64,000 nucleotides of DNA from Pseudoxanthomonas japonensis (GTDB lineage Bacteria; Pseudomonadota; Gammaproteobacteria; Xanthomonadales; Xanthomonadaceae). The stretch lies in NCBI RefSeq assembly GCF_010093445.1, contig NZ_PDWW01000001.1, positions 124,001-188,000 of the forward strand, written 5' to 3'. Shown here piece after piece: positions 28,652-45,271 of the stretch. The notes below the pieces were generated by a model, which saw only the letters and a list, made by a program, of their open reading frames with translations, was not told the DNA's origin and did not search any database. Position numbers and translations under genes: made by a program. The number at the start of each line of letters is the position of its first letter. Within the stretch, counting starts at the first letter, position 1.

Positions 28652-28914
28652 GTCGCCCGCCACACGATCCGGGCTGCGGAAAACCGCTGAATGGTAGCTC
28701 CCGAGCACAGGGGGCGGCAAGGTGCATTGATCGAGGACAAGGCGCCGTGGCCCGCGTTCGAGGGTGCGGCGCGCGCCTACGGCGGCGTTCCGCGACGTGC
28801 GTCACCGCCTCGCCCAGCGACACGCCCGAGGCCCGCAAACCCCGCACGACAGGCATATCCGGGCTGCCCGCGCGGCCCTAAACTAATGGACTGCCTTTGG
28901 ACTGCCCCGCCGTC

Positions 28915-31900
28915 ATGTCGACCCCTTCGCCCGTCCCGTCGCCCGCCGCCCCGATGGCCGGCGCCATCGTCTCCCCCGAGCTTCCCGCGCCTCCGGCCGC
29001 CCTGCGGGCCGCCATCACGGCGGCCTGGCTGCGCGACGAGACCGAGCATGTCCACGAGCTGCTGGAACAGGCCCGCCTGCCGGCCGACGAGCAGATCCAG
29101 GCGCAGAAGCTGGCCGTGGACCTGGTGAAGCGGGTCCGCGCCCGCGCGCAGGACCAGGGCGCCATCGAAGCCTTCATGCGCCAGTACGACCTGGGCAGCG
29201 AGGAAGGCGTGCTGCTGATGTGCGTGGCCGAAGCGCTGCTGCGCATCCCGGACCAGGAGACCGCGGACAAGCTGATCCGCGACAAGCTGGGCGATGCCGA
29301 CTGGGAAAAACACCTGGGCCAGAGCGACTCGGTGCTGGTCAATGCCTCCACCTGGGGCCTGATGCTGACTGGCAGGCTGGTCAACCTGAACGACCTGACC
29401 CGCGCCGACGTGCCCGGCGCCTTCAAGCGCCTGGTCGGCCGCGTCGGCGAGCCGGTCATCCGCCTCGCCGTGCGCCAGGCCATGCGCATCATGGGCCACC
29501 AGTTCGTCATGGGCCGCACCATCGACGAGGCGCTGGCCCGCAGCCGCAAGGGCGAGAATGCCGACTACCGCTACTCGTTCGACATGCTGGGCGAGGGCGC
29601 GCTGACCACGCGGGACGCCGCCCGCTACCTGGAGGCCTACCGCCAGGCGATCCATGCGATCGGCCGTACCGGTCCCTTCGCGGACGTGTTCGCGGCACCG
29701 AGCATCTCGATCAAGCTCTCCGCGCTGCACCCGCGCTACGAGCACGCCAAGCGCGCCCGCGTGATGAAGGACCTGGCCCCGGCCATCCTGGAACTGGCGC
29801 AACTGGCCAAGTCCTACGGCATCGGCTTCACCATCGATGCCGAGGAAGCCGACCGCCTGGAGCTCTCGCTGGACCTGATCGAAGCGACCTTCGCCGACGC
29901 CTCACTCGATGGCTGGGAAGGCTACGGCCTGGCCGTGCAGGCCTACCAGAAGCGCACGCCGTACGTGATCGACTTTCTCGCCGATCTCGCCCGCCGCGTC
30001 GGCCGCCGCATGCCGGTGCGCCTGGTGAAGGGCGCGTACTGGGACGCCGAGATCAAGCGTGCCCAGATCGACGGCCATCCCGGCTACCCGGTGTTCACCC
30101 GCAAGCCGAACACCGACGTGTCGTATCTGGCCAATGCACGCCGCATGTTCGACCACGGCGATGCGCTGTACCCGATGTTCGCTACCCACAATGCGCAGAC
30201 CATCGCCGCGATCCACGCGCTTTCCCTTCTCCCTCCGGGAGAAGGTGCCCGAAGGGCGGATGAGGGTGCGGGGCATCCTGGTGCCAGCGCTCGCGCCTTA
30301 CCCTCTCCCCAACCCCTCTCCCGGGGGGAGAGGGGCTTTGAATTCCAGAAGCTGCACGGCATGGGCGACGACCTGTACGCCGAAGTGGTGCCCAAGCACC
30401 GCCTCGACACGCCGTGCCGCGTGTACGCGCCGGTCGGTTCGCACGAGGACCTGCTGCCGTACCTCGTGCGCCGCCTGCTCGAGAACGGCGCCAACAGCAG
30501 CTTCGTCAACCGCATCACCGACGAGAACGTCGCCATCGAGGACCTGGTGCGCGACCCGGTGCAGACCGTGTCGGAATTCGAGTCCATCCCGCATCCGCGC
30601 ATCCCGCTGCCGGTCGACCTTTTCCGGAGCCAGCCGGCTCCCATCGCCTCTTCTGACAGGAACAACTCCATGGGCGCCAACCTCGCCAACGACAACGACC
30701 TGCGTGCCCTGGCCGAGCGCATCAACGCGTCGGTGAAGCCGTGGCGCGCCGCGCCGCTGGTGCCGGGCGCGGTCGTGTCCGGCAACGCGCTGCCGGTGAC
30801 CAATCCCGCCGACCGCCGCCAGACCGTCGGCGAATGGCAGCCGGCCGACAGCGCCGCCGTCGAGAAGGCGCTGGCGAATGCCGTCGCCGCGCAGCCCGCC
30901 TGGGACCGCACGCCGGCCGCCAGCCGCGCCGCGATCCTCGAGCACGCCGCCAACCTGCTGGAACAGCGCCTGCCCGACTACATCGCGCTGTGCGTGAAGG
31001 AAGCCGGCAAGACCATCCCCGACGGCGTCGCCGAAGTGCGCGAAGCCGTCGACTTCCTGCGCTACTACGCCGCCCAGGCGCGCGCACAGTTCGGCGCGCC
31101 GGAGCACCTGCCCGGCCCGACCGGCGAATCCAACCAGCTGCAGCTGCAGGGCCGTGGCGTGTTCGTCTGCATCAGTCCGTGGAACTTCCCGCTGGCGATC
31201 TTCCTGGGCCAGGTCAGCGCCGCGCTCGCCGCCGGCAACAGCGTGATCGCCAAGCCGGCCGAGCAGACCAACCTGATCGGCCATGCCGCGGTGAAGCTGC
31301 TACACGAAGCCGGCATCCCCGAAGCCGTGTTGCAGTTCCTGCCCGGCGACGGTGCCACCGTCGGTGCCGCGCTGACCAAGGATCCGCGTGTCGCCGGTGT
31401 CGCCTTCACCGGCTCCACCGAGACCGCGCGCGCGATCAACCGTGCGCTCGCCGGCCGCGAGGCCGGTCCGATCGCCACGCTGATCGCCGAGACCGGTGGG
31501 CAGAACGCCTTCATCGCCGACTCGTCGGCACTGCCGGAGCAGTTGGTCAAGGACGCGATGGGCTCCGCCTTCACCTCCGCCGGCCAGCGCTGCTCGGCTG
31601 CGCGCGTGCTGTTCGTGCAGGACGACATCGCCGACAAGGTGATGACTATGCTGGCCGGCGCGATGGACGAACTGAAGGTCGGCGACCCGGGGCTGCTGTC
31701 GACCGACGTCGGCCCGGTGATCGATGCCGATGCGCTGAAGATCCTGGACGACCACGCGGCCCGCATGGCCAACGAAGCGCGCCTGATCAAGCAGGCGAAC
31801 GCAGGCGATGACACGGCGCACGGCACGTTCTTCGCGCCGCGCGCGTGGGAACTGACGTCGCTGGACCAGTTGCAGAAGGAAATCTTCGGGCCGGCCCTGC

Positions 31901-32229
31901 ACGTGGTGCGCTGGAAGGCCGACCAGCTGGACGCGGTGATCGACCAGATCAACGCCACCGGCTACGGCCTGACGCTGGGCGTGCACTCACGCATCGACGA
32001 GACCATCGATCGCATCGCCGCACGGGTGAAGGTCGGCAACGTCTACGTCAACCGCAACCAGATCGGCGCCGTCGTCGGCGTGCAGCCGTTCGGTGGCCAG
32101 GGTCTCTCGGGCACCGGCCCCAAGGCCGGCGGTCCGCACTATCTGCCGCGCTTCGCCACGGAGAAGACGGTCACCGTTAACACCACGGCGGCCGGCGGCA
32201 ACGCGTCGCTGCTCACGCTGGGCGAATGA
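28915..32229 (+). CDS. putA: Bifunctional proline dehydrogenase / P5C dehydrogenase
   Basis: Oxidises proline to glutamate in two steps. 1104 residues from ATG 28915 (a TTG six codons upstream is possible). No N-terminal ribbon-helix-helix is seen, so probably catalytic only, not an autorepressor. PRODH barrel about 85-545: FTIDAEEADRLELSLDL, YQKRTPYVIDFLADLA, VRLVKGAYWDAEIKRAQ, KLHGMGDDLYAEV. P5CDH about 600-1080: NFPLAIFLGQVSAALAAGNS, FTGSTETARAI, the catalytic Glu in AETGGQNAF and catalytic Cys893 in AGQRCSAARV. Residues about 437-474 are encoded by an inserted palindromic repeat, in frame, between AIHAL and FEFQKLHG. An ideal terminator follows. Confidence 0.95.
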   Translation: MSTPSPVPSPAAPMAGAIVSPELPAPPAALRAAITAAWLRDETEHVHELLEQARLPADEQIQAQKLAVDLVKRVRARAQDQGAIEAFMRQYDLGSEEGVLLMCVAEALLRIPDQETADKLIRDKLGDADWEKHLGQSDSVLVNASTWGLMLTGRLVNLNDLTRADVPGAFKRLVGRVGEPVIRLAVRQAMRIMGHQFVMGRTIDEALARSRKGENADYRYSFDMLGEGALTTRDAARYLEAYRQAIHAIGRTGPFADVFAAPSISIKLSALHPRYEHAKRARVMKDLAPAILELAQLAKSYGIGFTIDAEEADRLELSLDLIEATFADASLDGWEGYGLAVQAYQKRTPYVIDFLADLARRVGRRMPVRLVKGAYWDAEIKRAQIDGHPGYPVFTRKPNTDVSYLANARRMFDHGDALYPMFATHNAQTIAAIHALSLLPPGEGARRADEGAGHPGASARALPSPQPLSRGERGFEFQKLHGMGDDLYAEVVPKHRLDTPCRVYAPVGSHEDLLPYLVRRLLENGANSSFVNRITDENVAIEDLVRDPVQTVSEFESIPHPRIPLPVDLFRSQPAPIASSDRNNSMGANLANDNDLRALAERINASVKPWRAAPLVPGAVVSGNALPVTNPADRRQTVGEWQPADSAAVEKALANAVAAQPAWDRTPAASRAAILEHAANLLEQRLPDYIALCVKEAGKTIPDGVAEVREAVDFLRYYAAQARAQFGAPEHLPGPTGESNQLQLQGRGVFVCISPWNFPLAIFLGQVSAALAAGNSVIAKPAEQTNLIGHAAVKLLHEAGIPEAVLQFLPGDGATVGAALTKDPRVAGVAFTGSTETARAINRALAGREAGPIATLIAETGGQNAFIADSSALPEQLVKDAMGSAFTSAGQRCSAARVLFVQDDIADKVMTMLAGAMDELKVGDPGLLSTDVGPVIDADALKILDDHAARMANEARLIKQANAGDDTAHGTFFAPRAWELTSLDQLQKEIFGPALHVVRWKADQLDAVIDQINATGYGLTLGVHSRIDETIDRIAARVKVGNVYVNRNQIGAVVGVQPFGGQGLSGTGPKAGGPHYLPRFATEKTVTVNTTAAGGNASLLTLGE
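30223..30336. repeat. Family F palindrome (two hairpins) inside putA
   Basis: Hairpin 1 CCTTCTCCCTCCGGGAGAAGG, linker with GGATGAGGGTGCG, then hairpin 2 CCCCTCTCCCGGGGGGAGAG. The same order occurs in the intergenic copies at 34686 and 45022. Here it keeps the putA frame open and encodes SLLPPGEGARRADEG ... PSPQPLSRGERG. Confidence 0.9.
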
Positions 32230-34685: not shown

Positions 34686-34797
34686 CCTTCTCCCGCCGGG
34701 AGAAGATGGCGCGCAGCGCCGGATGAGGGTGCGTGTGCCGCCGAACCGTCACCGCATTAACTGCCCTCACTCCACCCCCTCTCCCGCGAGGAGAGGG
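34686..34797. repeat. Family F palindrome, intergenic copy
   Basis: CCTTCTCCCGCCGGGAGAAG, then GGATGAGGGTGCGTG, then CCCTCACTCC and CCCTCTCCCGCGAGGAGAGG. Same two-hairpin order as the copy inside putA. Confidence 0.85.
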
Positions 34798-45021: not shown

Positions 45022-45208
45022 TCTTCTCCCCGCTTGCGGGGAGAGGTGCCCGGCAGGGCAGATGAGGGGCGAGCGCAATGGTGTTCCGCGCAATGTCTCT
45101 CCGCCCTCATCGAACTCGGCAATGCGAGCGCGCAGATTCAAGATGATGCCTCCGCTCTCCCCTCACCCGCCCTTCGGGCACCCTCTCCCCGCTGCGCAGG
45201 GAGAGGGC
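45022..45208. repeat. Long family F palindrome copy
   Basis: Starts TTCTCCCCGCTTGCGGGGAG, has GGTGCCCGGCAGGGCAGATGAGGGG, and ends CTCACCCGCCCTTCGGGCACC then CCTCTCCCCGCTGCGCAGGGAG. Fills most of the 300-base gap before the MAPEG gene. Confidence 0.85.
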
Positions 45209-45271
45209 AACCGCCCATGGACGCCTTGCCGCCGTACGCACTACCCTGCGCCCTCCTCGGAGGGAAAATTC

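Follow-up and report, generated by a model that had tools for sequence, protein, structure and literature searches.

A dispersed two-palindrome repeat in frame within putA and other conserved genes of Pseudoxanthomonas

Known in-frame palindromes and the insert in putA

The Rickettsia palindromic elements (RPE) were reportedly the subject of Ogata et al. in 2002. Sections of PMC3733652 describe RPE as palindromic dispersed repeats that also lie in frame inside many unrelated genes. According to the same sections, Rickettsia is the best-known source of in-frame palindromes in proteins, and REPs provide other examples elsewhere; GTAG- and CGTC-tagged REPs and REP dimers occur in frame in conserved genes, including those of Xanthomonas (PMC3733652). 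The recB genes of X. campestris and X. oryzae carry different REPs at about the same site (PMC3733652, section 15). Excerpts of PMC2759123 present the enterobacterial RU-1, RU-2 and RU-3 as small mobile repeats of 103–168 bp that have open frames and are found inside annotated genes. The GGGAATC repeats of Xanthomonas are described in an excerpt of PMC4692102 as a tandem heptamer family that is under-represented in coding regions.

The window, i.e., the whole 64,000-nucleotide stretch of Pseudoxanthomonas japonensis DNA that was analysed, contains a putA gene with an in-frame copy of a palindromic repeat, and two related intergenic copies. The genome under study is referred to as G000. The features are as follows (positions within the window):

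28897..32229, forward strand: putA, bifunctional proline dehydrogenase / L-glutamate gamma-semialdehyde dehydrogenase (NCBIfam and Pfam profiles)
30223..30336, forward strand: in-frame copy of the two-palindrome repeat, 38 codons, SLLPPGEGARRADEGAGHPGASARALPSPQPLSRGERG (BLAST and motif positions; a low-confidence loop in the AlphaFold2 model)
30225..30245, forward strand: palindrome 1, CCTTCTCCC-tcc-GGGAGAAGG (sequence)
30258..30270, forward strand: conserved inner box GGATGAGGGTGCG (aligned copies and motif positions)
30315..30333, forward strand: palindrome 2, CCTCTCCC-gg-GGGGAGAGG (aligned copies), with an extra CCTCTCCC before it at 30302
34686..34797, forward strand: intergenic copy arranged as in putA (73.5% identity)
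45022..45210, no strand assigned: longer intergenic variant composed of the same half-units, inverted in order (half-unit matches only)

The putA open reading frame is TTG-initiated and 1110 aa long, the ATG at 28915 being the more likely start. Its product scores 1617.6 bits against NCBIfam NF008869 (cut-off 747) and has the Pfam domains Pro_dh, in two stretches, and Aldedh; the frame is open over its full length and both catalytic domains are present. As the first-pass annotation reported, the 114 nt at 30223–30336 form 38 stop-free codons in the putA frame, flanked by AIHAL and FEFQKLHG, and correspond to PutA residues 437–474 provided that ATG 28915 is the start. The motifs it quoted are in place (CCTTCTCCC at 30225, GGGAGAAGG at 30237, GGATGAGGGTGCG at 30258, CCTCTCCC at 30302 and 30315, GGGGAGAGG at 30325). 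It had also described the arrangement as common to two noncoding copies, which holds for 34686–34797 but is only partly true near 45022, where the copy is longer and rearranged inside, with only the half-unit matches significant.

The Pseudoxanthomonas repeat may be likened to RPE as a set of dispersed palindromes, with many copies per genome (at least 39 places), that occur in frame in unrelated conserved genes (PutA, FolC, PurL, and HrpB) whose relatives have short loops. RPE differ in host class and sequence, while the Pseudoxanthomonas repeat is an inverted pair of palindromes of about 110–140 bp with seven of its 39 known places in identified genes. With the GTAG/CGTC REPs it shares the in-frame position in conserved genes, recB being a precedent for a reused site; it differs in having no consistent tag at its ends and in that no RAYT link was found. 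From their excerpted description, RU-1, RU-2, and RU-3 resemble it in size class, open frames, and genic copies, in another host. The family is distinct from the GTAG/CGTC REPs, yet, by analogy, of the kind known from them and from Rickettsia.

Anatomy and spread of the repeat family

A 141-nt query (30210–30350) gave at least 50 BLAST matches in its own genome, which merge into at least 39 places; both counts are minima, as 40 of 97 candidates were scored and the 45022 copy lies outside the scored set. The best non-self match, in the same genome, has an E value of 6.6e-33. In aligned copies the parts follow, roughly, the order palindrome CCTTCTCCC-GGGAGAAGG, small hairpin, GGATGAGGGTG, variable core, ACCCTCACCCCAACCCC, and palindrome CTCTCCC-GGGAGAGGGG; the element is therefore a pair of related palindromes set in inverted order. 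Folded as RNA, 30215–30345 gave a z score of −3.2 against dinucleotide shuffles. Searches of 81 genomes from the genus, its family, and its order, with up to 10 candidates scored per genome, gave a match in at least 51. By gene calls from a simple codon model, 32 of the 39 places in G000 are without an identified gene. No match was found among 50,697 phage records. Matches to plasmids comprised 59 records, 45 of them from Rhizobium; two of the 59 span at least 80% of the query, and of the 20 rows listed, 17 are confined to the first ~47–53 bases or to a 61-base part. Among the matches listed from open-licence PubMed Central, no title or abstract reported this repeat family or in-frame palindromes in Pseudoxanthomonas, and RepRanger (PMC12306157), as excerpted, does not mention Xanthomonas or Lysobacter.

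Two PF01797 (Y1, RAYT-type) transposase genes are present in G000. Like a REPIN, the element joins two palindromes, inverted in order, into a single unit. No significant match to it lies within 1.5 kb on either side of the two genes (best E value 0.007, over 14 nt), so copies of the repeat flank neither of them. No consistent GTAG/CGTC tag was seen by eye at the ends of 13 aligned copies from G000, and CTAC (GTAG reversed) stands next to the end in 2 of the 13. A RAYT origin was rejected, since both Y1 transposase genes sit among repeats other than the element; a RAYT may act on the element in trans. The first-pass annotation spoke of a mobile palindrome that had invaded a gene. The invasion is supported, while mobility we infer only, no mobilising enzyme having been found. 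By eye, the two Y1 transposase genes (L061 and L062) adjoin GTAGGAGCGACGTAAGTCGC-type and CGTAGGGCGGGCTCAAGCCCGCC-type arrays.

Genes with the repeat and the history of their loops

Identified genes contain at least seven of the 39 places, both figures being lower bounds; genes were called by the codon model on the surroundings of the copies. The repeat is internal to PutA, FolC (406.8 bits, cut-off 360), PurL (1730 bits, cut-off 783), and HrpB (1110.3 bits, cut-off 546). It is found in the C-terminal tails, past the profile match, of MrdA (681.1 bits, cut-off 455) and MreC (157.5 bits, cut-off 92.75), where the translation frame was perhaps extended into downstream repeats. The seventh (L200) is a probable B12-type ribonucleotide reductase, an assignment that is only probable because the piece resembling the vitamin B12-dependent enzyme scores 46.6 bits against a whole-protein cut-off of 961. 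Profile matches fall into two stretches for Pro_dh in PutA, NF008101 in FolC, and TIGR01970 in HrpB, with one boundary of the best stretch at the insert, and the match of PurL to the solved chain 4l78 splits at the insert; TIGR01499 covers FolC in one stretch. Of 29 loci in relatives (L032–L060), four were called in-gene (PutA twice, HrpB, and a nucleotidyltransferase of G002), which is a minimal count, since the caller placed the FolC copy of G034 (L054) as intergenic. In G002 the element appears, from its sequence, to lie inside a nucleotidyltransferase-like protein (L048; AAGLGERMRPLTD...). The genes mreC and mrdA are near neighbours (L188), both with the repeat family in their C-terminal tails.

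Loops were compared across 38 genomes of the genus, including G000, by cutting them out between fixed flanks wherever these matched; long loops were assigned to the element by eye from peptide and DNA. For PutA, which was not found in G003 and G006 and is of a divergent type in seven of the remaining 36 genomes (about 46–58% identity), the element is present in four (G000, G033, G019, and, shortened, G034). An equally long, unrelated loop occurs only in G025 and G035, with G031 intermediate, and the other 29 loops have 10–12 residues. The case that would have refuted the first-pass annotation, a loop of equal length and unrelated sequence in every relative, is not what is seen, and a long-standing large PutA loop was rejected. 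FolC has 11 long loops and 27 of 3 residues, PurL 12 long (five with the element by peptide and seven others) and 26 of 10–12 residues, and HrpB 11 long and 27 of 5–16 residues (38 genomes each). Loop length is a multiple of three in all 150 loops of the four genes. Beyond the genus, two Lysobacter-type MAGs (L072 and L073) carry a related insert at the same putA site, part of which is repeated in their genomes (14 and 8 matches, putA copies counted). In the PurL gene of G033 (L237), an in-frame TAA was observed inside the repeat-derived insert, the frame being otherwise open over the stretch searched. The PutA loop of G025 (L147) is made of an inverted repeat (GAGAAACGAG, CTCGTTCCTC), which differs from the main element, and folds at z −3.6.

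The comparison with RPE drawn by the first-pass annotation is apt, because a repeat found mostly between genes occupies, in frame, a putA site at which 29 of 36 loops are short, and has in-frame copies in other conserved genes as well. Very probably, this dispersed repeat of two palindromes has entered coding DNA on repeated occasions, and in-frame, stop-free copies in tolerant loops have survived. Changes were counted on a midpoint-rooted FastTree of concatenated flanks, with any long loop as the label and the divergent PutA flanks of seven genomes kept in. The Fitch counts were 4 for PutA, 6 for FolC, 7 for PurL, and 4 for HrpB, and as few changes were needed by 21, 3, 7, and 0, respectively, of 500 label shuffles. 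The long-loop state is therefore patchy yet partly inherited.

The putA loop of G000 is of the G033/G019 type, although its flanks group with short-loop species: putA DNA identity is 90–93% to 14 short-loop species and 83–85% to G033 and G019. The invasion may therefore be no fresh event in G000. Diagnostic sites delimit the shared stretch:

30215..30344, forward strand: G033/G019-like stretch of putA in G000, bounded by sister-like sites at 30204 and 30351

A sister-like site at 30216 falls just inside its left end, and isolated G033/G019-like sites occur at 30148, 30183, and 30567. It is more likely, we consider, that the allele came from the G033/G019 lineage by way of a very short tract than that it arose by new insertion. 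Shared flank codons and core pieces would favour such a transfer. An independent insertion into the same loop is a credible, if less probable, origin. By BLAST, the G000 insert is 86% identical to the putA insert of G019 over 93 nt and 83% to that of G033 over 83 nt. Its identity to intergenic copies is no lower, at 87% across 116 nt for one in G000 and 88% across 117 nt for one in G027, which speaks for a new insertion, as does the size of an imported tract, which would be shorter than 150 bp. Against this, the flank codons (HALS...GFE) and parts of the core (GCATCC...GCGCTCGCGCC) are, by eye, common to G033 or G019, and the insert stands in place of the native short loop instead of splitting it. 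Import is unproved, because intergenic copies match the insert at least as closely as those in the putA genes of G019 and G033 do, and BLAST identity cannot separate transfer from new insertion.

Constraint, structure and fate of the inserts

The pN/pS ratio is 0.46–1.47 in the inserts versus 0.06–0.18 in their flanks, in all eight groups (24 of 31 alleles), the groups having been chosen by insert similarity and pairs within a group being non-independent; the other seven alleles are FolC of G002, G034, G025, and G035, PurL of G026 and G033, and PutA of G034. Constraint on the inserts is thus relaxed, and their ratios would be fitting for a near-neutral passenger. Insert pS is below flank pS in seven of the eight groups, which is unexpected under plain neutrality and may point to constrained or homogenised DNA. 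Against codon-order shuffles, folding reached z < −2 in 28 of the 31 inserts (among them FolC of G035, which is long and of doubtful kinship to the element), in 6 of 9 other long loops, and in 3 of 19 flank controls. With 10 species for each gene, and HrpB of G019 and FolC of G035 left out, two-sided pair changes affect 5 of the 38 pairs in HrpB and 4 of the 28 pairs in FolC. In a close HrpB set of seven species they occur at 1 of 43 pairs, with 19 cells breaking their pair. Covariation as a sign of selected RNA structure is weak, two-sided changes being few.

It is unlikely that the inserts are retained for a function, be it as an mRNA hairpin tuning translation or decay or as a segment for contacts or regulation of the enzyme. 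The folding beyond codon-order shuffles, the reduced pS, and the two-sided changes in the wider HrpB and FolC sets all speak for such a function, but an insert of this origin would form hairpins in any case, most congeners lack it, pN/pS is near 0.5–1.5, and the close HrpB set has a single two-sided change in 43 pairs and 19 broken cells.

In solved relatives, the inserts fall in short gaps: residues 499/508 of 4o8a for PutA, 116/118 of 1w78 for FolC, 595/604 of 4l78 for PurL, and 236/241 of 6eud for HrpB. The PutA insert was thereby mapped onto the PRODH domain, as the first-pass annotation had proposed. An AlphaFold2 model of PutA (556 residues, 42-row alignment), of only moderate quality (mean pLDDT 74.7, pTM 0.79), places it as model residues 409–446 between a helix (399–409) and a strand (448–451). 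A Foldseek search with the model returned PutA structures as best matches (7my9, E value 4.3e-39), which confirms the fold only. In (beta/alpha)8 barrels, helix-to-strand loops lie opposite the active site. By this general rule, the insert, modelled in a helix-to-strand loop of the proline dehydrogenase barrel, would be on the face away from the active site. Its block means of pLDDT are 65, 46, 41, and 69, and the insert is probably disordered; low pLDDT is weak evidence of disorder, since the model is poor outside the insert too, where most of the 100 of 556 residues below pLDDT 50 are found.

The preferred reading, then, is one of repeated entry and survival in tolerant loops. The mostly intergenic two-palindrome repeat would enter genes repeatedly, and the copies that survive would be those in frame, without a stop, and in loops that tolerate a change of length. 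PutA could keep working with some 38 extra, probably disordered residues because the loop that holds them is predicted to lie on the barrel face away from the active site. The insert would then drift almost neutrally at the amino-acid level while its palindromes stay visible. Active mobility of the repeat, and translation and tolerance of the insert, we infer from sequence.

That the long loop is an ordinary fast-evolving one with a merely compositional likeness to the repeat is hardly credible: the PutA loops of G025 and G035 are indeed long and unlike the element, but the DNA match to another copy has an E value of 6.6e-33 and the same pattern recurs in FolC, PurL, and HrpB. Equally improbable are a non-functional putA and an artefact of assembly or sequencing, for although G000 is a 74-contig draft and assemblies fail at repeats, the insert is found at the same site in G033 and G019, as a shortened remnant in G034, and in related form in the two Lysobacter-type MAGs, the full-length frame is open with both catalytic domains, and flank pN/pS is 0.18 in the putA group that includes G033 and G019.

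Other repeats occupy some of the same loops. The PurL loop of G004, G018, and G016 is a multi-copy GGGATTC-type repeat, which by eye resembles the GGGAATC repeats excerpted from PMC4692102 and not the palindrome. A query modelled on the G004 loop, and 90% identical to it, had 127 matches in G004, 142 in G018, 42 in G016, and 49 in G034, and none in G000, G010, and G025 (overlapping matches and both strands counted); PurL of G004, G018, and G016 is among the places matched. In several species a further short palindromic module lies within the inserts of HrpB and FolC; in HrpB it measures, by eye, about 24 bases. A second PurL insert (L185, about aa 840–872; NRESGIGSGQEQ...FSIPHSPLPIP) has a GGGAATC-like look and lies in a second loop, where the matches to the 4l78 chain meet without a gap. 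The peptide LRQAQGDRDE in HrpB (L186, about aa 196–205) looks like a third repeat family. Similar-looking peptides, PVSSTGQA or LVSSTGQA, are found in G033, within both its HrpB and its FolC insert, and in the FolC of G026.

Tentatively, a few enzyme loops may be docking sites that collect any dispersed repeat that arrives, the filled loops passing between species as micro-alleles shorter than 150 bp. PurL would be such a site, with the palindrome in five species and the GGGATTC-type repeat in three, as would HrpB and FolC, with modules nested in their inserts in multiples of three. If this is true, selfish intergenic DNA would be a shared, exchangeable source of new protein sequence. The family lends itself unusually well to comparison: one genus (38 sampled species) has both filled and short alleles of the same loops, in four enzymes with solved relatives. 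The path from selfish repeat to protein, through insertion, tolerance, decay, and transfer, is thus directly measurable in Pseudoxanthomonas.
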